Origin: a virus
Direction: 5' to 3' (one strand)
DNA: 28,342 nucleotides
Virus record (IMG/VR): IMGVR_UViG_3300017748_000091
Coordinates: 1-28,342 of that record
Part shown: one piece after another, positions 1,094-25,789 of the stretch
Layout of the letters: the number at the start of each line of letters is the position of its first letter
Position numbering within the stretch: position 1 is the first letter of the stretch
Translations under genes and position numbers: made by a program
The notes under the pieces: generated by a model
Told to the model about the DNA's origin: nothing
Database searches by the model: none
What the model saw: only the letters and a program-made list of their open reading frames with translations

Positions 1094-3528
1094 TGGTAGA
1101 TGTTAAAATTGATATAAATCCAATAGGGTTTCCGGATTTATTTGTTTCTGATAGTGAAAAAGATACAGTAGAATATGGATTGCAAATTGGACAAGCAATT
1201 CAATACGAATGGTTTCGTAAAGACAGTAGTACTTGTAGGTTTTATTCTCAATGGAGAGACTACCACAGATTAAGACTTTATGCAAGGGGCGAGCAATCTG
1301 TTCAGAAGTATAAAAATGAATTAGCAATTGATGGAGATTTAAGTTACTTAAATTTAGACTGGACTCCTGTGCCTATTATCCCAAAGTTTGTAGACATAGT
1401 AGTTAATGGTATGTCAGATAGACTATTTAAAGTTCAAGCATATGCTCAAGATGCTTTGTCAGCCGAAAAAAGATCTTCGTTTCAAGACATGATAGAGGCT
1501 GATATGGTTGCTAAACCTATACTTTCTCAAATTCAAAAAGGTTTTGGCGTAAACCCTTTTGCCACGGATCCTGATGAACTTCCTAATAATGATGAAGAGC
1601 TAGCTTTATATATGCAGCTTAATTATAAACCCGGTATTGAAATAGCAGAAGAAGAGGCTATTAATACAATGTTTGAAGAAAATCATTATTCACACATTAG
1701 GAGAAGGGTGGATTATGACATGACCGTATTGGGCATAGGAATTACAAAACAATATTTTTTACCAGGAGAGGGTGTAAAAATAGATTACGTAGATCCTGCT
1801 AATGTGGTTTACAGCTACACTGAAGACCCTTATTTTAAAGATTGTTTTTATTGGGGTGAAATAAAAACGGTGCCGATGACAGAGCTACCTAAAATAGATC
1901 CCACTATAACTAATGAAGAATTAGAAGAGGTTGCTAAATATAGCCAAGCATGGTATGACTACTACAATGTTGCTCAGTTTTATGAAAACAGTATGTTTTA
2001 TAGAGACACGGCTACATTGCTTTATTTTAACTACAAGACTACAAACTCAATAGTATATAAAAAGAAAAAATTAGATGGCGGCGGAGCTAGAGTAATTGAA
2101 AAAGACGATCAGTTTAATCCACCCGATGAAATGATGGAGGAAGGTAACTTCGAAAAAGTCGAAAAGAAAATTGACGTGTGGTACGAAGGGGTAATGGTAA
2201 TGGGAACAAACATTGTCCTACAGTGGAAGAAAATGGAAAACATGGTTAGACCTCAGTCAGCTTCACAGCACGCTATGCCTAATTATGTTGCTTGCGCACC
2301 AAGAATGTATAAAGGTGTTATTGAATCATTAGTAAGACGTATGATTACGTTTGCAGATTTAATACAAATGACGCACTTAAAGCTTCAACAGGTAATTGCT
2401 AGAACTGTACCTGACGGAGTGTTTATTGATGCAGATGGATTAAATGAAGTTGATCTTGGCACAGGTAACGCGTACAATCCACAAGATGCTTTAAGGCTAT
2501 ACTTTCAAACAGGTTCTGTAATTGGTAGAAGTTACACGCAGGATGGAGAGTTTAATAATGCCAGGGTGCCTATACAACAACTAACATCAAGCAGTGGTCA
2601 AGGGAAAATAAATAGCCTGGTTGGAACTTACAATCACTATATGGATATGCTAAGAGGCGTAACTGGTTTGAATGAAGCTAGAGATGGAACTAAGCCCGAT
2701 CCTTATGCTTTAGTTGGCGTGCAAAAATTAGCCGCTTTAAATTCCAATACAGCCACTAGACATATACTTCAAGGTAGTTTGTACATAACACAGACGCTTG
2801 CAGAAGCGTTATCAATTAGGGTTGCAGATATTTTGCAATATGCAGAATTCAAGGAAGAATTTAAAATGCAAATAGGTAAATACAATGTAGGAATACTTGA
2901 GCAAATAAATGATTTATATATATATGATTTTGGAATATTTATAGAGGTAGCTCCAGATGAAGAAGAAAAAGCTCAACTAGAACAAAACATCCAAATGGCT
3001 TTATCTAAAAATGATATAAACTTAGAAGATGCGATTGACATAAGGGAGTTAAAAAATATAAAATTAGCTAATCAATTATTAAAAGTAAAAAGACAAAAGA
3101 AGCAAGAAAAGGATCAGCAATTTGCTATGACTCAAAAACAAATGGACGCTCAAACAAAAATGCAAGTACAGCAAATGCAGGCGGAGCAAGAAATGAGAAG
3201 GATTCAAATGGAAGGTCAAGTGCAGATGCAGGCAAAGCAAGCGGAAGTGGCATTTGATATAGAGAAATTAAAAAACGAAGCAATGTTAAAGCGTGAACTT
3301 ATGCAGGTTGAGTTTGATTTTAATATGCAATTAAAAGGTAGAGAAGAGCAGGCAATTGATAAAAGAGAAGGAGAAAGAGAAAAAGCCAAAAACAAAAGAA
3401 TAAGTCAAGCTAACACTGAGCAGTCTCAATTAATTCAACAAAGAAAAAATAATTTACCTCCAATTAGTTTTGAGTCTAATGAAGACACATTGGATGGTTT
3501 TGATTTAGCTGAATTTGAACCTAGATAA
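1093..3528 (+). CDS. Portal protein (large, 811 aa)
   Basis: Dodecameric ring at the head vertex through which DNA enters and leaves. The protein is long compared with typical 500-600 aa portals and similar in size to those of crAss-like phages. The segment DWTPVPIIPKFVDIVVNGMS (about residues 90-109) has the look of that portal group. The middle is mixed alpha/beta. From about residue 667 to 785 there is a long Gln/Met/Lys/Glu-rich coiled coil (QKQMDAQTKMQVQQMQ and similar), matching the helical C-terminal barrel of large portals. The tail after residue 790 is acidic. The gene starts in a TAATG overlap with terL and ends in another with the phosphatase gene. Position between terL and scaffold/capsid supports the call. 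Confidence 0.85.
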   Translation: MVDVKIDINPIGFPDLFVSDSEKDTVEYGLQIGQAIQYEWFRKDSSTCRFYSQWRDYHRLRLYARGEQSVQKYKNELAIDGDLSYLNLDWTPVPIIPKFVDIVVNGMSDRLFKVQAYAQDALSAEKRSSFQDMIEADMVAKPILSQIQKGFGVNPFATDPDELPNNDEELALYMQLNYKPGIEIAEEEAINTMFEENHYSHIRRRVDYDMTVLGIGITKQYFLPGEGVKIDYVDPANVVYSYTEDPYFKDCFYWGEIKTVPMTELPKIDPTITNEELEEVAKYSQAWYDYYNVAQFYENSMFYRDTATLLYFNYKTTNSIVYKKKKLDGGGARVIEKDDQFNPPDEMMEEGNFEKVEKKIDVWYEGVMVMGTNIVLQWKKMENMVRPQSASQHAMPNYVACAPRMYKGVIESLVRRMITFADLIQMTHLKLQQVIARTVPDGVFIDADGLNEVDLGTGNAYNPQDALRLYFQTGSVIGRSYTQDGEFNNARVPIQQLTSSSGQGKINSLVGTYNHYMDMLRGVTGLNEARDGTKPDPYALVGVQKLAALNSNTATRHILQGSLYITQTLAEALSIRVADILQYAEFKEEFKMQIGKYNVGILEQINDLYIYDFGIFIEVAPDEEEKAQLEQNIQMALSKNDINLEDAIDIRELKNIKLANQLLKVKRQKKQEKDQQFAMTQKQMDAQTKMQVQQMQAEQEMRRIQMEGQVQMQAKQAEVAFDIEKLKNEAMLKRELMQVEFDFNMQLKGREEQAIDKREGEREKAKNKRISQANTEQSQLIQQRKNNLPPISFESNEDTLDGFDLAEFEPR

Positions 3529-4073
3529 TGTTTGAAAACTTTAATATTGAAAAATATAAACAAGTGCATTACCCTTCAGATAATTCACTTAAAACTTTGA
3601 ATGAGATAAAAAAATTAAAAAAAACACCACTTAATACCATAGTGCCTAAAAAATACGATGACATATTTAGTGTCTTTCAAAATATATTTTCACATAGGCC
3701 GGAATCTTTTCCGTACAAAATAGTGGATAAGCTGTTGAGTGAATCTCAATCAGTTATTCTAAAAATTAAAAACTATCATAACAGGCCAAGGCCAAATGTA
3801 AACGCATTGAACTTTAACATGAAGCTAGAGTATTTAAAAATGGATAGCGCACAAACACCTGCATTTCCTTCAGGACACTCAGCACAATCTAGATTGGTGG
3901 CGCTAGCATTAACTAAATTATATCCTAATTTAAAAAATGAATTTAATAAAGCAGCTAAAAATATATCTGAAAGTAGGCTGTTGGCAAGAGTTCATTATGA
4001 GTCTGATAAAATAGTGGGAGAAAAATTAGGTGAAGACCTTTATACTCATATAAAACATCTAAAATATATTTAG
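3528..4073 (+). CDS. PAP2-superfamily (class A-like) acid phosphatase
   Basis: Predicted phosphomonoesterase of the PAP2 / bacterial acid phosphatase / vanadium haloperoxidase superfamily. All three signature motifs are present and correctly spaced: K79-x6-R86-P87 (KIKNYHNRP), P114-S-G-H117 (FPSGHSAQ), and S149-R150-x5-H156-x3-D160 (SRLLARVHYESD). H156 would form the phospho-enzyme and H117 act as acid/base. At 181 aa it is shorter than secreted class A enzymes (about 230-250 aa), and it has no signal peptide or membrane segment, so it should be cytoplasmic or virion-associated. It begins at the portal stop (TAATG) and sits between portal and scaffold, so it is made with the head proteins. 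The substrate cannot be told from sequence; free phosphate esters, nucleotides or polyphosphate are all possible. The superfamily is certain enough, the role is not. Confidence 0.85.
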   Translation: MFENFNIEKYKQVHYPSDNSLKTLNEIKKLKKTPLNTIVPKKYDDIFSVFQNIFSHRPESFPYKIVDKLLSESQSVILKIKNYHNRPRPNVNALNFNMKLEYLKMDSAQTPAFPSGHSAQSRLVALALTKLYPNLKNEFNKAAKNISESRLLARVHYESDKIVGEKLGEDLYTHIKHLKYI

Positions 4074-4106: not shown

Positions 4107-5276
4107 ATGGAAATAAAAGTAAGAGATTTAGGTGAAATGGAATCTAAATCAACACAGGAAATAGAAAAACAACTACTTGAAAAGCATGAGGCTCAGCAAG
4201 AATCCCTCGAGAAAACAAGTACAAACGAAGAAGTTCAGCGTGTAAACTTGCAGGAAGAAACACAAGAAGAACCCAAGCAAGAAGTAGTAGTTGAAGAAAA
4301 AATTGAAGAACCTGTTGTGGAATCACCCAGTGAATCTACACCAGAGATGTCTGAAAACGACGTTCTTTCATATATTGCAAACAAGTATGGCGAAGAAGTA
4401 AGTTCGCTAGACGACTTCATTGTAAAGCGAAATTCATCCGAAGAATTACCCGAAGATGTAAAAGCTTACTTTGATTATAAAAAAGAAACAGGAAGAGGAA
4501 TTGATGATTTTGTTAGATTACAGCAAGATTATGATTCAATGAATCCTGATTCTTTAATTGCTAGTTATTATTCTGCAACCGAAGAAGGATTAGATTCTGA
4601 AGATATTAAATATCTTATGGATGAAAAATTCGGTTTTGACGAAGATTTAGATGATGATAAAGAAAAAAAGAAAAAACAATTAGCAAAAAAAAGAGAACTA
4701 TCTAAAGCTAAGAAATACTTTAAGGAGCAGAAAGAAAAATACAAACTTCCTCTTGAGTCAAGAGAAGTTGTTTCTGAAAGCGATAAAAAGGAAGTCGAAG
4801 CATATAGAAAGTACATAGAGGAAAATGCTGCGTATGAGAAAAACGCGGCGCAGAAGCTACAGTGGTTTAAAAAAGAAACTAATAAAGTCTTTAATAAAGA
4901 TTTCAAAGGTTTTGAGTTTGTTATTAACGAGAAAAAAATTTCTTATTTACCTGGGTCTGTAGAAGATGTTAAAAATAATCAATCAACTATTGAAAATTTT
5001 ATTGGAAGATATGTTGACGATAAAGGATTGGTTAAAAACACTTCTCAGTATCATAGGGCTTTATCTATGGCAATGAATCCGGACAAGTATGCTAAGTTCT
5101 TTTATGAACAAGGCAAGGCCGATGCGGTAGAGAATATATCCAAAAAAACAAAAAATATAAATATGGATGTAAGATCTGCTCCACAAGCCACCACAAAATC
5201 TGGTTTCAAAGTAAGATCATTAAACCAAGATTCAGGTCGAGGTTTAAAGATTAGAAGTATAAAAAAAAGTAATTAA
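4107..5276 (+). CDS. Head scaffolding protein (predicted)
   Basis: Internal scaffold that shapes the procapsid and leaves before or during DNA filling. The call rests on position directly before the capsid gene, highly charged and largely helical composition, and a typical profile: a Glu/Gln-rich N-terminus (residues 1-80), an acidic region with DEDLDDDKEKKKK (about 176-188), a Lys/Glu-rich helix, and a basic C-terminal tail (FKVRSLNQDSGRGLKIRS) of the sort that binds capsid subunits. No protease motif is seen, so there is no sign of a self-cleaving scaffold. The leader AAATTAAATCAAATG is shared with the gene at 6803. Length 389 aa. Confidence 0.7.
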   Translation: MEIKVRDLGEMESKSTQEIEKQLLEKHEAQQESLEKTSTNEEVQRVNLQEETQEEPKQEVVVEEKIEEPVVESPSESTPEMSENDVLSYIANKYGEEVSSLDDFIVKRNSSEELPEDVKAYFDYKKETGRGIDDFVRLQQDYDSMNPDSLIASYYSATEEGLDSEDIKYLMDEKFGFDEDLDDDKEKKKKQLAKKRELSKAKKYFKEQKEKYKLPLESREVVSESDKKEVEAYRKYIEENAAYEKNAAQKLQWFKKETNKVFNKDFKGFEFVINEKKISYLPGSVEDVKNNQSTIENFIGRYVDDKGLVKNTSQYHRALSMAMNPDKYAKFFYEQGKADAVENISKKTKNINMDVRSAPQATTKSGFKVRSLNQDSGRGLKIRSIKKSN

Positions 5277-15230: not shown

Positions 15231-16001
15231 ATGGCAGACGGAAAATTTGCACAAGCAATGTCAAGTGCATCAGCAGCTTTAGGTGTTGTAGGTGCGGCAT
15301 TTGGATTAGCCGGAAGCATCTCACAATATACTACGGCTAACAGAGCTTTAGAAAGAGCAAATAAAGAAGCGGCTTTAGCAGTTGCTCAAGCCAGAGATAA
15401 GATTAGTAAGATCCCTATGTTAGAAAAGGGTATACCTGCAATAGCCACAGAACAAATACAAAAAGATGCATTAAGACAAAGAAAACAATTGCTTGATGCA
15501 GTTAGAGGTTCAGGTCAAAGAAGTGTGTTAGGGGCAGCTCCCACAATCGGAGAACAAATATTAAAAGAAAAAGAAACGCAAAGAGGGGCTATTGAAAAAC
15601 AATTACAAGCTCGCGAAGATGAAATAATTAAAGCTAAGCAAGCTCAGCAAGATACAGAGCTTGAGATGTTAACTGCAGCAGGCACAGCAGCTCAACAAAG
15701 AGCGGCAGCCGCAGCAAATCAAAAAGCATTAGCAGTTGGATCCGCTGTTTCTTCAGCAGGCTCATTAGCGGGATCTTTAATGGAGGGAGCAGATTTGTTT
15801 GGAGGAGAAAAGAAAAAATTTAATATAGCAATTAAAAACATCATTGGAGACAGCGGGATAGATGTGGGAGAATTTACTGAATTCGTAAACTCTAAAACAG
15901 GATCTCAAGAAGATTTATTGACGCAGTTAAATGACCCGATCGCTGGCGCAAAGCTACTTGAAGAATTTACAAATCCTTCTGATGAATTAGGGGTTGATTA
16001 A
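15231..16001 (+). CDS. Internal virion / ejection protein (gp14-like by position)
   Basis: A 256-aa Ala/Gln-rich protein. Residues about 11-33 (SASAALGVVGAAFGLAGSIS) form a hydrophobic, Gly/Ala-rich, membrane-active segment, followed by long helices rich in A, Q, K and E (to about 165) and a second Ala/Gly/Ser-rich hydrophobic stretch at about 165-185. The C-terminus is acidic. A helical, membrane-prone small protein encoded first in a row of three growing cargo-like genes parallels T7 gp14 (with gp15 and gp16), which is injected and forms a channel across the host envelope. Homology to gp14 is not visible; the call is by composition and order. The next gene's alternative TTG start lies inside its end. 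Confidence 0.55.
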   Translation: MADGKFAQAMSSASAALGVVGAAFGLAGSISQYTTANRALERANKEAALAVAQARDKISKIPMLEKGIPAIATEQIQKDALRQRKQLLDAVRGSGQRSVLGAAPTIGEQILKEKETQRGAIEKQLQAREDEIIKAKQAQQDTELEMLTAAGTAAQQRAAAAANQKALAVGSAVSSAGSLAGSLMEGADLFGGEKKKFNIAIKNIIGDSGIDVGEFTEFVNSKTGSQEDLLTQLNDPIAGAKLLEEFTNPSDELGVD

Positions 16002-16014
16002 ACCACAACATAAT

Positions 16015-17844
16015 ATGGCAAGCAATAAAACTTATTACAACCGAGGTGGCAATAGATTTACAGGGATGTTTGATTCCGGTGAGCAATTTGTTCCAGTAGA
16101 TTGGGCGCAGATTACAGGTGATATTGTAGACAAACTACAAACTATTCAGTCTGAAAAACAAAAAAAACGAGACGACATCCAAACAAAAACGGATGAACTA
16201 CTTACAGATCTTAGAGATTACCAAGCAGGAGGAAACAATACTTTCAACGGATATGTGTTAGATGGATCAAAGCAGGTTAAAGATTACATGCTGATGCAAA
16301 ACAAACTATTAAAGCAAGGTAGGTTGGATCCAAACTCTTATACAAGAAGCCAGCAATTACTTCAAGATGATTGGAATTCTTTTCAAGTTGCGGCTGAAAC
16401 TTTCAATACAGATTATGCAGAGGCGATGGAAGCAGTGAATGCAAAGGATGCTTCAGAGCTAGCTATAGTTCAATTTAATAAATTACAAAGTGCTACAGAT
16501 ATACAGAAAAGTAGATTAGTAATTAACACAGATGGTAGATTGTATTCACAAACCGGTGAAGGTCAATTGGTTGGCTTCACCAATATGAATGCTAGGCAAA
16601 AAGATATTCCTAAAAACTATAAAATAACAGAAGGTGTTAAAGCTTTTACATCTACACTAGGAACATATAGAGAAGCTAATCCTAATTTAACGATAGAAGA
16701 CATTACAAAACAACCTGCATTTACAAAAGCTAGAGATACATTTATAGAGGGTGTTCTTAATCAAGGAACAGGTAGGGATTTTTTAAGTATACTTACTCAG
16801 AACGGATACGAGCTAACACAAAATCCTGATGAGGCAACAGGCAATACAATACTAATAAAAGCAGATTCAAACGGATTACTTCAACCAGATAAAGATTCTT
16901 TAAATAAACACAGAGATGCTGCTAAGAAAATACTGCAAGAGGCTATTAGTGTGCAACTAGATTATAAAGAATCAGCGGGTACTAAAACTGCTCAAGAAAG
17001 AATAATAGAAAAAGGAGAAGCAGAGAAAATAAAAAGCGCAGGAAATAATTATAAATTAACCGCACAATTATTTAGCACAAACGGTAATTTGAATAAATCT
17101 GCAGCTACTAAATTAGCACAAGCAAATACAAACATAGATAGAATTCAATTAACAAATGATGGTATAAATATTGAATTAGTATCAGGTCAAGCTCCTATTC
17201 CTGTTAAACTTAAAAATGATGACGGATCATTCAAGACACCTTCAGATCTAACGAATGAAGTGTTTGCTGTATTTTATCGTGGTGATCAAGCTTTAACAGG
17301 CACACAACTTGAAGAAGTGCAATCAACTTACATTAACAGTTTAAATGAAAACGATAATACTAAATTTTCTGGAAGCACATATGATATTACTGAGTTAAGC
17401 ACTGATCCAAATTTCTTGTTTGATGTAAAAAGGCCTAAAGAATTAGCTAGGTTTGATTTTGAAAAAATAAAAATTGGAGGAGAGAGTAGCGCCTCTGCCG
17501 TGGAGAGTCACAACAAAGCTGTAAATACTATAAGAAATTTAGACAGTTCAGAGGTTGAGAAAAGAAATCAAATAAAACAAGCTAATCTATCAATGATGAA
17601 TTTATTGATGCCTAGTTTAAAATACACTGATGCTCAAACAAAAAAACAAACCTTATTGCCTATAGAGCAATTTGATGATGGTGCCGTGGTGTACGTAGAT
17701 GATGATGATAAAACACAAACAATTATAGATACAAACGGTCAAGTTAACACAACCTTGCTGTCAAATATTATAAATCAAAAACAAGTAGATCCGGGGACAA
17801 CAGGTGTGTCTGAAGGCATTGATACTTCAAAATATGATAAATAG
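16015..17844 (+). CDS. Internal virion / cargo protein (gp15-like by position)
   Basis: A 609-aa largely helical, hydrophilic protein with no signal peptide, membrane segment or enzyme motif that I can see. The frame can begin at a TTG at 15994 overlapping the previous gene, but the ATG at 16015 follows an A-rich leader (AACCACAACATAAT) and gives a normal start (MASNKTYYNRGGN), so it is preferred. N-terminal residues include YYNRGGNRFTGMFDSGEQFV; residues 40-70 are rich in K, D and Q as in coiled coils. It lies between the membrane-prone 256-aa protein and the giant metallopeptidase protein, 3 nt before the latter. A middle ejection-protein role is inferred from order alone. Confidence 0.6.
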   Translation: MASNKTYYNRGGNRFTGMFDSGEQFVPVDWAQITGDIVDKLQTIQSEKQKKRDDIQTKTDELLTDLRDYQAGGNNTFNGYVLDGSKQVKDYMLMQNKLLKQGRLDPNSYTRSQQLLQDDWNSFQVAAETFNTDYAEAMEAVNAKDASELAIVQFNKLQSATDIQKSRLVINTDGRLYSQTGEGQLVGFTNMNARQKDIPKNYKITEGVKAFTSTLGTYREANPNLTIEDITKQPAFTKARDTFIEGVLNQGTGRDFLSILTQNGYELTQNPDEATGNTILIKADSNGLLQPDKDSLNKHRDAAKKILQEAISVQLDYKESAGTKTAQERIIEKGEAEKIKSAGNNYKLTAQLFSTNGNLNKSAATKLAQANTNIDRIQLTNDGINIELVSGQAPIPVKLKNDDGSFKTPSDLTNEVFAVFYRGDQALTGTQLEEVQSTYINSLNENDNTKFSGSTYDITELSTDPNFLFDVKRPKELARFDFEKIKIGGESSASAVESHNKAVNTIRNLDSSEVEKRNQIKQANLSMMNLLMPSLKYTDAQTKKQTLLPIEQFDDGAVVYVDDDDKTQTIIDTNGQVNTTLLSNIINQKQVDPGTTGVSEGIDTSKYDK

Positions 17845-17847
17845 AAT

Positions 17848-20800
17848 ATGAATGAAGAAGCTTTACAAGATGCGTATAGGTTGTTTTCCAATGGCGGTTA
17901 CAGTGGTTCTCTAGAAGAATTTAAAGTTTTAATTGATTCAAATCCAGAGGCCCTAAATGATTCTTACAAATTGTTTAGAGGTGGAGGTTATTCTGGAGAC
18001 TTTAAAGCCTACAAAACCTTAATAGGTCAAAAAAAAAAAGAAGAAATTACCGAAGAACTTTCAGACTCAACTTCGGAAGATTCTCTATTGGATTCACAAT
18101 TTTCTATCACCGAAAGTAAAGCCACAAAAGGTGTAAATAAAGCTTTAGATGCCGCAACTGATGTAGCAATCGACGCGATTATGCCAGGGTTTGGGTTGTT
18201 AAAAACCATTATAACAAATCCAAAAAATAATTCTAAAATATTTGATATTGTTTCAGAACCAGGTGTTAGTAGTGAGGTAAAAGAAAAAAAAGAAACTACA
18301 GAAGAGCCTAAGTTTGTAGACCCAACTATCCTTAGCAAATCTTTTGAAGAAGATGCAGGGGTAAATGTTGAGACGGATGAAACCAAACTTAATATGGTTC
18401 AAGATTTGTATAGTGGAATGTCAGGTTTGAACTTAGATGAACTATCTAGATACCTGGATTCAGATGTAGAATATGAAGGTGTTAAATCAAAAAGAAATCG
18501 TATTATAGATCAGGCCCTAGCTGGCACTATAGACAGTGATGCAAAACTTGAAAGCTTGCAAGAAGATTTTAAGGACTTGTCTGATGCCGGTATATATGCT
18601 GACATGAAAAGACAAGAGGCTTTAAGTGTATATACTAAAGATAAAGTCAACTATATAAATAAAAAAATTCAAGCCATTGATTCCTTGATGGCAGAAGGAA
18701 AAGAAGATTATGAGGGTTTAAATTTATTAGATACTAAACAAAACTTAATTAATGAAAGAACTTCTTTAGTGAAATCTGTTAACAGATTTTCCAGACAGTA
18801 TCTTCCCTTTTTTAATAAGTACATGCAAGATAAGAAACAAGATTTAGCTAATAAATATGTTTCTGGAGATATGGGATTATATAACATGGGGGACATTACC
18901 TCTGGTATTGGAACTGGGTTGTCAAAATTTGAACAAGGGGCCGGCAAAGCAGTTAATGACGTAACAAGCGTTGTGTTTGACGCAATTGGATTGGATAATG
19001 TGGCGGACAGAATAAGAAAGAATAGCGAAATGGAGGAATTAAAAAAACTAGATCCGTCTTCTTTTATGATCGCTAGAGGTAAAGTTGTAAACCATGAGGG
19101 TAAAAAATATATTGTCACTCCGGAAGGTCAAATTATAGATGAAGAAAGAGAAGTAGATGTATCCTTTTTTGGTGAGCAAGCAGGTATAGATTTAGGGGCC
19201 ATACGTAATAAAGCCAAAGAATCAAATGAATTAGAAACAACTTCTAGTTTCTATGGTATGATGACAGGTAGCTCTAATGTCTTAGGTAATTTAGCCGTTC
19301 AAATAATAGGAATGAAGGGTAGTGGTAAGGTTTTAAAAGCCGGTGGCAAATATGTGACTAAACCACTAACCGGTTTAGCATTAGGAAAACAATCTACAAT
19401 GCGAGCAAACGCTATGCTTAGTACAGGCGCTATAGTTTATAGTGGTACGTACAACCAAACATACCAAGAAGCTTTGGATCTAGGGTTGAATGATGCGCAA
19501 GCACAAGTATTGGCGGATGACATTGCAGATGTAACCGGTATTGTAGGTGGGTTGACTGCAGTTTTAATTTCTCCAAACATTGGTGGTCAAAAACTACTTG
19601 ACAAAATAAGCGTTAAAGAAATGACCAAACGAGTTGTTGAAGGTAAAACCACAAATACTAGAAAACAAATAGCTTTAGATTTTATAAAAGGAGCGTTGCC
19701 TGAAGGTACATTAGAAGCGGTGCAAGAAAACCTTGAATTAGTTGGTGAAGATTATGCAAGGAAAAAAGCAAACTTAAAATTGGGTGATGAAATATTTAAA
19801 CCTGTATTAACAACCAACAGTGTACTTAATAATTCCGCAGCGGCATTTGCTACCGCGGGTCTTTTAGGTGGTGCGGGTAATGTAGGTAAGTCAAAAATTG
19901 TATTATACAATAGATTAGGAAGTAGTCAGGAATTGTTTCAGAAGTACATGAAAATGTATGTGAATCAAGATAGAATATCTCAGCCAGAAGCTGACAGGAT
20001 AGTTAAGGAAGTTGAGAGTTATCATCAATTTAAAAACTCAGTTCCATCTAACATAAGAAATAAGCCGGAGGCTATTGAAATAACCAACTTGCTTGCACAA
20101 AAAAATCAACTGAAAGATAAATTAAAAACACAAGATGAAGTTTTTCATGAGGGAATTAATAAAGAAATTAGTGAGATAGATGCGCAGATACAAACATTAA
20201 CAAATCAATCTACATCTACAACTAAAGAACCTGAAGTAGAACCTAAAACAACAGAACAAGATGCCAGTACGAAGCCGAGCGCAGTGGCGCAAACTAGCCC
20301 AGACGAATCCACAACTACTGAGGAAGTGGTTGAAGGAGTATCCAGTGAGGTTCAGCAACCTACCGGAACGAGTCAAACCCAAACTGACAGTGACGTCGAC
20401 ACGACAACGCAGGAGGAAATAACACCTGAAGATGAATTAACTGCTGAAGTAGAAGCGGTGACTGAACAAGAAGCAGAACAGGAGTTAGATGAACTTCTTA
20501 GTGAAGCTGAAGCTAAAAATGAAAATGTTACAACTGTAGGCACACAAGGCAGAAATAAAAGTATATCCCGTAAGGCAAGCGCACAAACAAAAGCTCAAGG
20601 ATTCAATACTAGAACACCAGAAGGCAAAAGAAGATTTAACAAAATTAAAAGTAAAATCACACAGGACTTCAACAAAAAAATGAGAACCCTTAAGAGAGCT
20701 GCTAATTTATTAGGTAAGATTTTACCGAATACTAAGATTGTTTTAGCAGAAACTAAAGCAGATTATGACAGATTAAGAGGTGAAAAAAGTAACTCAGTAG

Positions 20801-23800
20801 GAGTTTTTAGAGTTACTAAGGACGGAAGGACTGCAATTTTTGTTGATGTTAGCGCTCTCAGCACTGACAAAGGCATAGAAACTATAGCACATGAATTATT
20901 TCATGCAATCTTATACAAAAAATTTGGCAAGAACAAAGCAAAAATTAGGAGAGTTACTGACAAGATGGTCAAAGAACTTCAAAAAACTTTACAAAATTCC
21001 AACGATAAAGATCTTCAGGATATGGGTAATGCACTGGTTAGGTTTAGCAAACAGTATCCAGAGGCAAAACAAACTGAAGAATTTTTGTCAGAAACTCTAG
21101 GTTATCTTGCTGAAAGATTTGATCAGGTTCGTAGAGATTCTAAAGCGTTAAAAATTGTAGTTAGTTTTGTAAATAAAATCAGCGACCTTTTAGGTATAGG
21201 TAAAGTAAAAAAAGAATTAGCCAAAGATCCTGACAGAGTGTTAAGAGCTTTAGCTTTGGTCGCTAAAAAACTTCAGAGCGGTGAAGTATTACAGGATACA
21301 GACTTTGATATTATAAACGAGATAGAAACAGAGGTGGATCAAGAAGGGGTCGATGCGCCTATAGTTACAGGTGCAGTAGACTTTGTTGGTGATACAGATA
21401 CAACCACAGATGAAGAGGTAACTGTTACCGTTCTTGAAGATGTTGAGGTAGATGAAACAACTACGGAAGACAGAGTAGTTGAAAAAAAGAAAAAGCCTAC
21501 GACCACTGATGCCACATCAACTACATTGCTTAGAAAAATATCTACTGAAATTAAAAAGGCAATCAAACAAGCAAAGAACCAACAAAAGAAAATTAAAAGA
21601 GAAGTGGCTTTAGCCATAAGAGAATCAGTAAAACAAGGTACACTGTCAGCAAAGCAAGCTTTGGTGTTAGCCAAAAGAGCTTTGACTTTGAATGTAGATA
21701 GCCCTTTAGCCGTTGAAAGATTTATCTTATATACAAAGAAAGCTTTTGCTGATGCAAATAGTATATTCAAATTAAAAACAGCAAATACATTTAGAAAACA
21801 ATTAAAGAAAATTGGTAATAGTAAAACTATAGATGCAGCTATTGCGGCATCTGCAAAAAACTTTGCGCTTATGGATCCTATTTATGTAGAGGATCTTGAC
21901 TTATACAATCAGTTAGCAAAAGAACTTGTTGACGGATCTAAATCTAGTAGAGTGTTAAAGGGTGAAGTAAAACAAAAGAGAACCGCTGACCTTGCAAAAA
22001 TAAACGCATTTGCTGACAACCAACTTGAAAAAGAAAAAGTTGAAATAGAGGCTACTATGAGAGATGAGTTTGAAGCCATGACTGGTATCGATGCAAAGGA
22101 TATGACTTATGCACAGATGAAAAGTTATTTAGATGATAAAACTCCAGCACCTAGTGAACAAGATGAATCGATCATTCGTAAAGCTGTAACAACTATGTTC
22201 AATAAGTATTCTGAAACCATCAAACAAATGTTATCAAGTGGTGTGGATGCGGCGACAGGAAACCCTTTAGATTTAAGTGCAAATCAAAAATCTATTGTGA
22301 AAGAGTTTATGGATATGGACTTATCGGTTATGGGAATTAAAGAAGTAATAAGGTCTGTAGATGCATTAAATAATTTTATAGTAAACAGAAATACTGGGGG
22401 TATGGAGACGGTGGTTAATAATAATAAAGGAGCCTCCAATGTATCGAAAATGGTTAGAGATGGTAAAATCGTAAAGCCTAAAACTAAGTTTAAATTTTTA
22501 TTTGAAAATTTAGTAAACCCAGTTGCTAGAGATTTTGCATCTTTAACAATATATCTAAAATCTTTGTTAGGTGGTCTTGATAATTCTATTGATTTTAAAA
22601 TGATGAGCGGTTTAGTTTTTTTTGATCAAGGGGCTAGTTTGGCTAAAAAACTTACTGAAGAAATAACTGATAATTATGCAAAAAAGTTTAGTAAATTAAG
22701 GCCTAATAATGAATTGTTTAATTCTGTAAAAAATACTTTAGAAAGAGGAGTATATGCTTTTTTAGTTAGAACAACCAGTGGTGATATAGACTCTAGCAAT
22801 AAAGAATTTAAAAGAAGATTAAGGTTGGTAAAACAATCTATAGAAAAATATCGAAGAGGAGATAAAAAACAACAAGAAACAGCTGATGTTCTTCAGGAAA
22901 TATACGATAAGATTAAGGGTGCAGAAAATTCATTGGAAATTGAAAATGTTTTTGACCAAGTTAACAAAGATGCAGTTCTTTTCTGGCAAAATGAATGGGC
23001 TAGAATATACCCACAGCTATCTGAAACAAGCTATAATATATATAACCAAATATTAGGAAATGATGTAAATTATACTCCAGATAAATTTTCTGCATTTGAG
23101 GCAGATACAGAAGTAGAACTTGATAATCAAAGTGCATTTGCATCTTTTTCAGGAACTGTGTTCGGTAAGAAAAAAGCAGGAGTTTTATTTGAATCAACAA
23201 AACCTCAGCAACTACCGAAAGATAGAGTTGTTAATTTCAACTTTGATTCAAACATGGCTAGGTCAATGGAGTCTGCACAAATGGATGTGCAAACTGCTCA
23301 GGCATTTAATCAAGTAAAAGGATTTGTTGAATCTCCAGATTTTAAAAAATTAATTCCAGACAATACAATAAGAGAAATAACTGCTGAAAGAATTATAAAC
23401 TACATTAATAAAACTAAAAAAAATGTTTACATACCCAAAAAACAACAAGGTTTTATAGATAAATCATTAGATTTTTTAGCAAACCTAGGTGTTTCGCGTG
23501 CGCTATCTGGACTTGCTCAGCCTTTTAAACAAACAATACCTATGATGTTTGATATATTAATTACCTCGGGCGGAAAATTAGACTTAGCATCATATACTAA
23601 TAAAAGTATACAAAATTGGATAAATAAATCCGGTGCATCAGTGGCCCTTCGTGGAGGATTGTCAACTGCAGATATGTCAAAACTAGAAAGCTTTATCAAC
23701 TCAGACGAAATTATAGAGCAAGCTAAAGATCTTAAAAATCTTCCAAAAATTATTAAAAGAATTAACGATATAGGTTTGAAATACTTATTAGTAAAACCTG

Positions 23801-24681
23801 ATCAAATGATAGCACGCGTGGCTTTTATAACTTACTACAAACAAAAACTTTCTGAAAAAGGAGTTAATGTAGAATCAATAAATTGGGAAACTCACAAGCC
23901 AGATAAAGAAGCTGTTGCTTATGCAGATGCACAAGTAGATATACAACAAAACATTTCTAATCCTGAAATGTTCGGAAGGTTTTTTGAACCAGGTGATGGT
24001 TTACTTAAAAGAGCAAGGCAATTATTTATGCCTTTTGCGTCACACGCTATGAATTTAAAACTTAGGATATACACGGACATGTTAACCTTAATTAGTAATA
24101 CAGCGTCGGCGGCTGAAAAAAGAAGATCAATAACTTCGTTAATAGGTGCATCCACACAATTAGCAGCATTTCACACAATGAGTTACTTTATAGCCTCTTC
24201 ACTTATGTCGATCGGAGCAGATGATGATGAGAAAACAAGAAAGAAAAGGCTTAGTAATATTAAAAAAGGAAGGCTTGGTAATTTAGTGTCAGACTTTTTA
24301 AGTCCGATCAATCAAAATTATGTAAATGATGTAACATTGTCTGCAATTAATGTGTTTTATCGCAACATTACTGGGGATGACAAGGAATTATTTTTTGGAA
24401 TTAGCGATAGAGAAACCTTTTTGGAGAAATTCGGGCAAATAGGTATTCCAATTAAGAAATTTAAAGAACTTATTGACATAAGCTTTCTCGCTTACGGTGA
24501 TGGAGTTTATGAAGATAGCTATGGTAATAAAAGAAAAATAAGTAAAAAACAACAAGACAATTTAAAGTTTGTTGTCATTCCCTCAATATTTTACAACCTA
24601 GGATTACTTCCAGCTGAAACAGGAACCTATATAAGAAACTCTGTAAGGGAGGCAAAGAAAAAAACTACGAAGGCTAAATAA
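17848..24681 (+). CDS. Giant internal virion protein with zinc-metallopeptidase domain
   Basis: 2277 aa, the largest gene. Order: two 30-residue repeats (5-59); helical region; Gly/Ala-rich hydrophobic stretch around 470-590; Thr/Glu-rich disordered linker (about 785-890); a zincin-like domain with H1015-E-L-F-H1019 in IETIAHELFHAILY and a possible third zinc ligand at E1078 or E1082; a second acidic Thr-rich linker (about 1180-1230); and a long helical C-terminal half, including GLAQPFKQTIPMMFD (about 1887) and RQLFMPFASHAMNLKLR (about 2055). The C-terminal half resembles large polyvalent proteins, multidomain proteins co-injected with phage DNA. By order it corresponds to T7 gp16, with a peptidase where gp16 has a transglycosylase. 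The peptidase may cut host envelope proteins or process virion proteins. The stop overlaps the convergent gene by 8 nt. Confidence 0.7.
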   Translation: MNEEALQDAYRLFSNGGYSGSLEEFKVLIDSNPEALNDSYKLFRGGGYSGDFKAYKTLIGQKKKEEITEELSDSTSEDSLLDSQFSITESKATKGVNKALDAATDVAIDAIMPGFGLLKTIITNPKNNSKIFDIVSEPGVSSEVKEKKETTEEPKFVDPTILSKSFEEDAGVNVETDETKLNMVQDLYSGMSGLNLDELSRYLDSDVEYEGVKSKRNRIIDQALAGTIDSDAKLESLQEDFKDLSDAGIYADMKRQEALSVYTKDKVNYINKKIQAIDSLMAEGKEDYEGLNLLDTKQNLINERTSLVKSVNRFSRQYLPFFNKYMQDKKQDLANKYVSGDMGLYNMGDITSGIGTGLSKFEQGAGKAVNDVTSVVFDAIGLDNVADRIRKNSEMEELKKLDPSSFMIARGKVVNHEGKKYIVTPEGQIIDEEREVDVSFFGEQAGIDLGAIRNKAKESNELETTSSFYGMMTGSSNVLGNLAVQIIGMKGSGKVLKAGGKYVTKPLTGLALGKQSTMRANAMLSTGAIVYSGTYNQTYQEALDLGLNDAQAQVLADDIADVTGIVGGLTAVLISPNIGGQKLLDKISVKEMTKRVVEGKTTNTRKQIALDFIKGALPEGTLEAVQENLELVGEDYARKKANLKLGDEIFKPVLTTNSVLNNSAAAFATAGLLGGAGNVGKSKIVLYNRLGSSQELFQKYMKMYVNQDRISQPEADRIVKEVESYHQFKNSVPSNIRNKPEAIEITNLLAQKNQLKDKLKTQDEVFHEGINKEISEIDAQIQTLTNQSTSTTKEPEVEPKTTEQDASTKPSAVAQTSPDESTTTEEVVEGVSSEVQQPTGTSQTQTDSDVDTTTQEEITPEDELTAEVEAVTEQEAEQELDELLSEAEAKNENVTTVGTQGRNKSISRKASAQTKAQGFNTRTPEGKRRFNKIKSKITQDFNKKMRTLKRAANLLGKILPNTKIVLAETKADYDRLRGEKSNSVGVFRVTKDGRTAIFVDVSALSTDKGIETIAHELFHAILYKKFGKNKAKIRRVTDKMVKELQKTLQNSNDKDLQDMGNALVRFSKQYPEAKQTEEFLSETLGYLAERFDQVRRDSKALKIVVSFVNKISDLLGIGKVKKELAKDPDRVLRALALVAKKLQSGEVLQDTDFDIINEIETEVDQEGVDAPIVTGAVDFVGDTDTTTDEEVTVTVLEDVEVDETTTEDRVVEKKKKPTTTDATSTTLLRKISTEIKKAIKQAKNQQKKIKREVALAIRESVKQGTLSAKQALVLAKRALTLNVDSPLAVERFILYTKKAFADANSIFKLKTANTFRKQLKKIGNSKTIDAAIAASAKNFALMDPIYVEDLDLYNQLAKELVDGSKSSRVLKGEVKQKRTADLAKINAFADNQLEKEKVEIEATMRDEFEAMTGIDAKDMTYAQMKSYLDDKTPAPSEQDESIIRKAVTTMFNKYSETIKQMLSSGVDAATGNPLDLSANQKSIVKEFMDMDLSVMGIKEVIRSVDALNNFIVNRNTGGMETVVNNNKGASNVSKMVRDGKIVKPKTKFKFLFENLVNPVARDFASLTIYLKSLLGGLDNSIDFKMMSGLVFFDQGASLAKKLTEEITDNYAKKFSKLRPNNELFNSVKNTLERGVYAFLVRTTSGDIDSSNKEFKRRLRLVKQSIEKYRRGDKKQQETADVLQEIYDKIKGAENSLEIENVFDQVNKDAVLFWQNEWARIYPQLSETSYNIYNQILGNDVNYTPDKFSAFEADTEVELDNQSAFASFSGTVFGKKKAGVLFESTKPQQLPKDRVVNFNFDSNMARSMESAQMDVQTAQAFNQVKGFVESPDFKKLIPDNTIREITAERIINYINKTKKNVYIPKKQQGFIDKSLDFLANLGVSRALSGLAQPFKQTIPMMFDILITSGGKLDLASYTNKSIQNWINKSGASVALRGGLSTADMSKLESFINSDEIIEQAKDLKNLPKIIKRINDIGLKYLLVKPDQMIARVAFITYYKQKLSEKGVNVESINWETHKPDKEAVAYADAQVDIQQNISNPEMFGRFFEPGDGLLKRARQLFMPFASHAMNLKLRIYTDMLTLISNTASAAEKRRSITSLIGASTQLAAFHTMSYFIASSLMSIGADDDEKTRKKRLSNIKKGRLGNLVSDFLSPINQNYVNDVTLSAINVFYRNITGDDKELFFGISDRETFLEKFGQIGIPIKKFKELIDISFLAYGDGVYEDSYGNKRKISKKQQDNLKFVVIPSIFYNLGLLPAETGTYIRNSVREAKKKTTKAK
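17860..18024 (+). repeat. Tandem 30-residue repeat at the N-terminus of the giant protein
   Basis: Residues 5-29 and 35-59 align as ALxDxYxLFxxGGYSGxxxxxKxLI with a 30-residue period: ALQDAYRLFSNGGYSG and ALNDSYKLFRGGGYSG. DNA copies differ at many positions, so the repeat is old and held by selection at the protein level. It may be a binding or virion-loading tag. Confidence 0.8.
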
Positions 24682-25789
24682 AGTAATGAGTAAGCCTAGC
24701 TACTTGTCCATGCTCTAAGTGATGAACAAATCCTTCAACAGCTTTAGGAGATCCCGTATATCCTTTGCGACTATGCCAACTGTCTGAAGATGAAGGGCTT
24801 CTTAAATACTCTACAGTTACCCCAACAAAATCTTTTCCATCCAACCATTTGTGTTTTACTTTGTGGTGTAAATGATGTAAGTACCAATATCTTCTTTTAG
24901 CTTTAGCCCACATCATAGGTTTTTCTTGAGCCATCAGTAAAGGTAGATCAGCAAGCTTTGCACCATCACCATGCTCTAACCCAATCAATGAACTTCCATA
25001 TTGATAATACTTTCTGTGGTTTACTGTAATATCAAACGTAACATCTTTTGCTTTTCTAAACCACGCTTGCAATGTATGGGCTAAGTGAAAGCCTGATTGG
25101 TAATCATGATTACTCATACTGTGAACAACATCTACCGGAGCCACTGCCCTCAACATCTCAATGCACTTTACATAAAGTTTTAATGCTACTTCGTAATGCT
25201 CCCACCACTTACCATCTGTGTCTTGCCTTGTGCCCTTTGTAGTGGTATTATATACATTGTCTACATGAAGCACATCATTACCTATGCAAAATAATATTTT
25301 TTCAACATCAAATCCTATAGATTTAGCTAGTAGTCCTTTTACTCCTTCAATCACTCTGTCGCAAGCTATATCTGTATTGTATTCTTCTCCTGTCTCAATC
25401 TCTTGAGCGTACTTACCAATATGAATGTCAGCTGGGTTTATAACTAATAAGTGAGGATCCGTGCTTTTAGACCTTCTAATGCTTTTATATGTAGGCGCAT
25501 GATCATGAATAAATTTATTTACATTCTTCATCATCTGACCTTCATCTAAGCCATAGTCATCTTTGGTAACTATAGAGAATCTATATTCACCTGATGCACT
25601 CTGCCAATGCTTTACACTTACAACTGAATCGGGATCTATACCTCTTTCTTGAAGATGTTTAGTTAACTCAGAGTTTTCATTTTCATTCACATTTACAAAT
25701 GCGTTTGATCGATACTCGAGTATCAATTCTTCTTCACTTGGTGAAAGGCGTAGCCTTCTACCATAGGTTTTGGTAGATTTAGATTTCAT
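24674..25789 (-). CDS. Calcineurin-like metallophosphoesterase
   Basis: Predicted two-metal phosphoesterase, 371 aa. Motifs in order: D121-x-H123 (ADIHIGK), G170-N-D172 (IGNDVLH), S226-N-H-D229 (MSNHDY), H273 (LEHGDGAK) and H306-x-H308 (LHHLHH). Motif II has GND where GD is usual, and motif III has SNHD where GNHD is usual; the metal-ligand residues are kept. The first 100 residues are a separate helical domain (RRLRLSPSEEELILEYRS) of unknown function. Members act as nucleases, nucleotidases or protein phosphatases; the phage context suggests DNA or nucleotide processing, but the substrate is unknown. It is the last gene of the leftward module, overlaps the 62-aa gene by 11 nt and converges with the giant virion gene. 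Confidence 0.8.
   Translation of the reverse strand: MKSKSTKTYGRRLRLSPSEEELILEYRSNAFVNVNENENSELTKHLQERGIDPDSVVSVKHWQSASGEYRFSIVTKDDYGLDEGQMMKNVNKFIHDHAPTYKSIRRSKSTDPHLLVINPADIHIGKYAQEIETGEEYNTDIACDRVIEGVKGLLAKSIGFDVEKILFCIGNDVLHVDNVYNTTTKGTRQDTDGKWWEHYEVALKLYVKCIEMLRAVAPVDVVHSMSNHDYQSGFHLAHTLQAWFRKAKDVTFDITVNHRKYYQYGSSLIGLEHGDGAKLADLPLLMAQEKPMMWAKAKRRYWYLHHLHHKVKHKWLDGKDFVGVTVEYLRSPSSSDSWHSRKGYTGSPKAVEGFVHHLEHGQVARLTHYFI

Follow-up and report, generated by a model that had tools for sequence, protein, structure and literature searches.

The DNA analysed here (the window, 28,342 nucleotides) is a stand-alone virus record, a 28-kb piece of the genome of a podovirus-like phage with Bacteroidota-type bacteria as hosts. 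PHROG head and packaging families are matched by the genes for its large terminase, portal, major capsid and tail. By portal, the nearest isolates are an unclassified phage (71%), Maribacter phage Panino (49%) and Flavobacterium Elemovirus (45%), with Cellulophaga and Tenacibaculum phages as more distant relatives. The genes follow the order terminase, portal, PAP2-family protein, putative scaffold, capsid and tail genes, and then three genes for proteins of 256, 616 and 2277 aa, the last of which is the subject of this analysis. The gene between portal and scaffold (3528-4073, plus strand) bears the RP / PSGHS / SR...H signature of the PAP2 superfamily of lipid/acid phosphatase-like proteins (Pfam PF01569, E 6e-10), and a convergent exonuclease gene (24674-25789, minus strand) shares a few bases with the 3' end of the giant gene. 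The relevant features are the following:

4107-5276, plus strand: putative scaffold gene; homologues in many other phages bear the nested gene, which the window copy lacks
15994-17844, plus strand: gene for a 616-aa protein, immediately preceding the giant gene, a position kept in relatives
17848-24681, plus strand: gene for a giant virion-type (polyvalent) protein of 2277 aa, the last large gene of the structural module
17848-18045, plus strand: aa 1-66, N-terminal repeat 'EAL..AY.LF...GY.G...EF..L', common to L009, ctfjg026, L045, L055 and others
19045-20247, plus strand: aa 400-800, N3, a conserved region within the N-terminal part, present in several otherwise different giants
20260-20424, plus strand: aa 805-859, linker 1, acidic and S/T/Q-rich, encoded by the DNA of the nested gene as read in the host frame
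20261-20422, plus strand: nested small gene in the +1 frame relative to the giant ORF, MPVRSRAQWRKLAQTNPQLLRKWLKEYPVRFSNLPERVKPKLTVTSTRQRRRK (53 aa, pI 12, net charge about +13.5)
20620-21297, plus strand: aa 925-1150, zincin (gluzincin-type) metallopeptidase-like domain
20890-20904, plus strand: HELFH, H1015-H1019
21076-21093, plus strand: EEFLSE (E1077, E1078, E1082) on a downstream helix, candidate third zinc ligand
21310-21612, plus strand: aa 1155-1255, acidic linker 2, ordinary single-frame coding
21610-24678, plus strand: aa 1255-2277, C-terminal part, common to L009, L032, L059, L061, L062 and L066 whatever the middle module

The 2277-aa ORF starts with ATG and is free of internal stops, and the HExxH core that the initial annotation placed at H1015-H1019 falls within a conserved domain of aa ~925-1150. 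As with gp16 of phage T7, this is the largest gene after two smaller structural genes, a likeness of position; the place first assigned to it holds in that no other large gene of the structural module follows it. Unlike T7 gp16 and the internal core proteins, the giant carries a peptidase-like domain, and no transglycosylase or lysozyme domain was detected in it by Pfam. It does not follow that a peptidase has replaced a wall hydrolase: no hydrolase domain was found by Pfam at E<1, but related phages have separate endolysin/peptidase genes. Both flanks of the peptidase domain are acidic and rich in S, T, Q and P (pI 4.05 for aa 795-905, 4.57 for aa 1155-1255), in contrast to the domain itself (pI 10.0). 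The flanks had been described as two disordered acidic linkers; acidic they both are, but they are not alike, the first being largely the shadow of an overlapping gene, whereas synonymous variation in the second is normal (0.299).

Selection acts on the +1 frame of linker 1. When the linker ahead of the peptidase is aligned among about 40 otherwise different giants, a conserved peptide emerges, and the codons of the linker are conserved where the host-frame amino acids vary. Among the window and seven relatives, synonymous change over host codons 805-859 is 0.041 against 0.297 gene-wide, and the lowest value in any stretch of 55 codons outside the nested gene is 0.171. Differences at the first, second and third host-frame codon positions amount to 0.175, 0.119 and 0.090 at the nested gene, reversing the gene-wide pattern (0.224, 0.153 and 0.366), and this reversal is confined to the nested-gene region within the giant gene. 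Synonymous scans of four upstream genes showed no comparable dip (lowest value 0.172) and no reversed codon-position pattern. Across 38 distinct copies, taken from loci not chosen by this sequence, it is the third position of the nested frame that varies most. With the window and its close relatives left out of the profile, the window ORF is still matched at 5.3e-14, and a DNA profile also built without the window places the element, weakly (E 0.3), at 20246-20343.

The same conservation could be read at the level of the host protein, with the linker as a processing site or packaging tag of scaffold and giant and the +1 ORF as incidental, and in the host frame the peptide [ND]A[VI]Q[KE]Q... 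does recur in about 40 giants and, besides these, in scaffolds. This reading is very unlikely: substitutions in the host frame alter amino acids and spare third positions, conservation begins at the nested ATG, and the same small protein is encoded by a separate gene where the host frame is absent. It is highly improbable that the conserved stretch is a DNA element, such as a recombination site or a packaging or replication signal, and not a gene. Conservation at the DNA level where the N-terminal part meets exchanged modules would fit such an element; however, substitutions track the +1-frame codon structure, an ORF of 36-68 aa that begins with MP(F)KS-AQ and is K/R-rich at its end persists in divergent copies, and stand-alone copies across many bacterial phyla and phages conserve the protein. 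The linker motif was also considered as a protease cleavage site and as a DNA recombination element, and both candidates were dropped for the same reason, substitutions tracking +1 codons.

The conserved stretch is thus best taken as a gene, and the nested ORF is homologous to stand-alone genes. PHROG 1375, a family with no assigned function, is matched by 34 of 79 members of the small-protein family, and the window copy has no direct match to it. PHROG 1375, gp48 of Streptomyces phage FlowerPower and URG13095 of 023Pt_psg01 belong to the same small basic family as the nested ORF. The latter two are ordinary separate genes, whereas the window copy lies inside the giant ORF, in another frame. 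Annotations call the stand-alone homologues of Streptomyces phages and of 023Pt_psg01 hypothetical, and the 68 Elemovirus records list the host 'structural protein' alone, leaving out the nested ORF. A literature search found nothing on the small protein, and what is new here is the nested, relocating form of a known but uncharacterised small family. Its AF2 model consists of two short helices (pTM 0.48), with which Foldseek matched only unnamed small phage proteins. The high positive charge of the protein suggests nucleic-acid binding. Translation probably begins internally at the ORF's own ATG, before which no recognisable ribosome-binding site was found, only an A-rich leader.

A frame-blind peptide search returned 98 loci, 63 with stand-alone and 35 with nested copies, and all 35 nested copies lie in one and the same relative frame. 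In the stand-alone copies this nesting frame is seldom open (7/63, against 45/63 for the other frame), so the frame preference is not due to open frames. An element in another frame in L125 was dropped, the element there being the stand-alone gene itself. At four loci (L309, L316, L287 and L055) the stop of a giant gene is followed within 0-10 nt by the start of the small gene, and the giant of L309 resembles that of the window at 1e-116. Giant stop and small-gene start overlap in L309 (TAATG); in L055 the small gene occupies L055:13264-13434. Many contigs also have the nested ORF within a gene of ~400 codons. Each of the 83 complete host genes of this type matches the putative scaffold gene of the window, with a portal upstream in 78 and a capsid downstream in 61. 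As for its dosage, 23 of 37 whole records hold one copy, and the small gene was not found in the other 14. It occurs as well in phages without this zincin, and no copy was detected in several genomes with the same peptidase, which indicates that the small gene is not universally needed.

The small gene is probably an independent late gene, given that some relatives have it immediately after the giant gene and others within the giant or scaffold gene, and it was probably read through by a neighbouring structural ORF. According to the proposed course of events, it would originally have stood between two structural coding segments until the structural ORF came to read through it in the +1 relation; the acidic flexible linker would be a by-product of this read-through, and selection on the small gene would have continued afterwards. 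On the comparisons above, the following general picture appears likely. Tailed phages would encode a small basic late protein, in one copy per genome where present, either separately beside the giant gene or nested out of frame in the giant or scaffold gene. The giants may have grown via read-through, with the shadow of the small gene acting as the linker between the N-terminal part and the cargo, and nesting would couple production of the small protein to that of the structural one.

The nested gene is the larger point of this locus, ahead of the peptidase. It is a conserved and widespread phage gene overlooked by annotation owing to its same-strand overlap with a structural gene, and it is apparently under stronger selection than the linker read through it. 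Read-through of this kind would give giant multidomain virion proteins a concrete route to gain linkers, and it calls for caution with 'conserved disordered linker motifs' in viral proteins, which can be the shadows of overlapping genes. Truncated second copies of the small-gene start (MPFKSKKLMK, MPFKR) are also found upstream of the full copy (Elemovirus giant aa 1090, L026 aa 698), and they look like decayed earlier copies.

Downstream of linker 1, the giant protein holds the motif IETIAHELFHAILY, with H1015, E1016 and H1019; from composition, the chance expectation of an HExxH in this protein is about 0.002. All seven relatives that reach the region (L001-L007) retain the motif, although they had been identified with peptides from elsewhere in the protein, and HExxH is also kept in the Elemovirus protein, which came from a tblastn search; in relatives found using HExxH itself, retention of the motif is circular and not independent. 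A domain-alignment scan of viral contigs, with the HExxH region as search word, gave 165 relatives, and in the best 80 loci, which were examined, the domain forms the middle part of ~1,900-3,900-aa proteins in nearly all complete ORFs. Two downstream glutamates, E1077 and E1078, are invariant among 71 aligned relatives, and E1082 is kept in 67 of them. These residues were absent from the search patterns and constitute an independent test of the site.

The AF2 model of the domain (pLDDT 77, pTM 0.69) presents the order helix-beta-helix-beta-beta, HExxH helix, two helices and then a Glu helix, an order of elements that has also been described for the metallopeptidases (MPTases) of polyvalent proteins (PMC5512222). 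In the model, HExxH and the downstream glutamates sit on two helices behind a three-stranded sheet, with E1077, E1078 and E1082 all on model helix 164-180. The conservation of these glutamates on the downstream helix makes a gluzincin-type site, composed of H1015, H1019 and a downstream Glu, likely. The initial proposal of a metallopeptidase core, together with the third ligand sought by structure prediction, is in this way sustained at the level of prediction, and the domain would be expected to bind zinc and to cleave proteins. Foldseek searches with the model matched giant phage proteins (E 4e-7 to 3e-4), the Elemovirus 'structural protein' among them, and found no significant solved structure, the best hit having an E of 0.26 and lethal-factor-type zincins coming first, weakly. 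Pfam gave no match above cut-off for the domain, and Pfam/PDB profile searches yielded sub-threshold or chance matches only.

The peptidase extends a known class, the metallopeptidases of phage 'polyvalent proteins' (Iyer 2017, PMC5512222). Members such as P1 DdrB and the N4 virion RNA polymerase are likewise giant, multidomain and encoded beside virion genes, and both large multidomain build and coding alongside virion genes hold for the 2277-aa protein. The HExxH helix followed by a Glu-bearing helix and the mosaicism of modules are shared too. Unlike these proteins, the window giant has no recognised RNA polymerase, ParB or other named catalytic partner domain, and the DNA before its peptidase is dual-coding. 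The C-terminal domain C1 of N4 vRNAP is an HExxH domain in a giant ejected protein, where it adjoins the RNA polymerase (PMC12633501); the window giant is likened to it by features, both having HExxH in a giant protein, and not by sequence. In the Flavobacterium Elemovirus, a 3694-aa 'structural protein' (for example QMP84709.1) carries a homologous zincin (~30% identity, E 3e-14). Its gene likewise closes the structural module and contains a nested small ORF of its own, but the protein differs in being longer, in having DUF3293 and in a C-terminal part with only a short weak match.

When the giant protein was profiled segment by segment, the N-terminal repeat, N3, the zincin and the C-terminal 1000 aa proved to recur in varying combinations. 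The polyvalent-type architecture suggested at the outset is supported, as that of a mosaic multidomain giant whose relatives exchange modules. The zincin is the sole catalytic domain recognised in the window giant, and relatives bear others, for instance DUF3293 or a segment here called module X. The latter is best seen in L009, whose giant has the N-terminal repeat and C-terminal part of the window giant, module X in the middle and no HExxH; a zincin match was not found anywhere in the L009 record, in a search run without a positive control. A different module in place of the peptidase indicates that the peptidase is swappable cargo, which in turn makes an essential role in self-processing less likely. 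Retention of the motif in homologues, on which the initial annotation had staked its reading, holds for L001-L007; L009 has lost it, through replacement of the module and not decay of the site. Module X (L009 aa 881-1255, L009:10638-11762) contains a conserved-looking HDFYGH stretch and has no Pfam match; L045, L061, L062, L069, L073, L079 and L091 have both this module and the zincin. Taken together, the giant is very probably a polyvalent virion protein in which conserved N- and C-terminal parts enclose exchangeable modules, in this case one gluzincin-type domain, and the DNA linking the N-terminal part to this domain doubles as the gene for a 53-aa basic protein.

The positional counterpart of the giant in Cellulophaga phage phi40:1, gp101, is present in virions by MS/MS according to its record, and no sequence similarity between gp101 and the window giant was detected; the homologous Elemovirus protein is annotated as 'structural protein' on an unstated basis. 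By analogy with such proteins, the window giant would belong to the virion, and it would most likely be packaged and ejected with the DNA, after which the peptidase would act in the new host or on the giant itself. Cleavage of a host protein after ejection is a credible reading with nearly even prospects. The domain behaves as an exchangeable module in mosaic giants with its active-site residues kept, and MPTases are used as effectors in conflict systems (PMC5512222), although this support is comparative in kind and points to no particular substrate. More tentatively, the metallopeptidase might cut the giant, at the linkers or at other sites, either while the virion is assembled or once the protein has been ejected: acidic flexible linkers flank the domain on both sides, and self-processing has been proposed for phage P1 DdrB and polyvalent proteins generally (PMC5512222). 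However, the overlapping gene accounts for the linker in which a cut site would be expected, and N4 vRNAP, with such a domain, is packaged uncut (PMC5512222). The L009 giant, with the same N- and C-terminal parts, dispenses with HExxH altogether, and it is this relative that puts host-directed action slightly ahead of self-cleavage.

A further variant is found in the nearest isolate by portal, L014 (ctfjg026), whose 3859-aa giant has the N-terminal repeat as the sole part in common with the window, together with two other HEFGH motifs (aa 1615 and 2500) and a nested small gene of its own.
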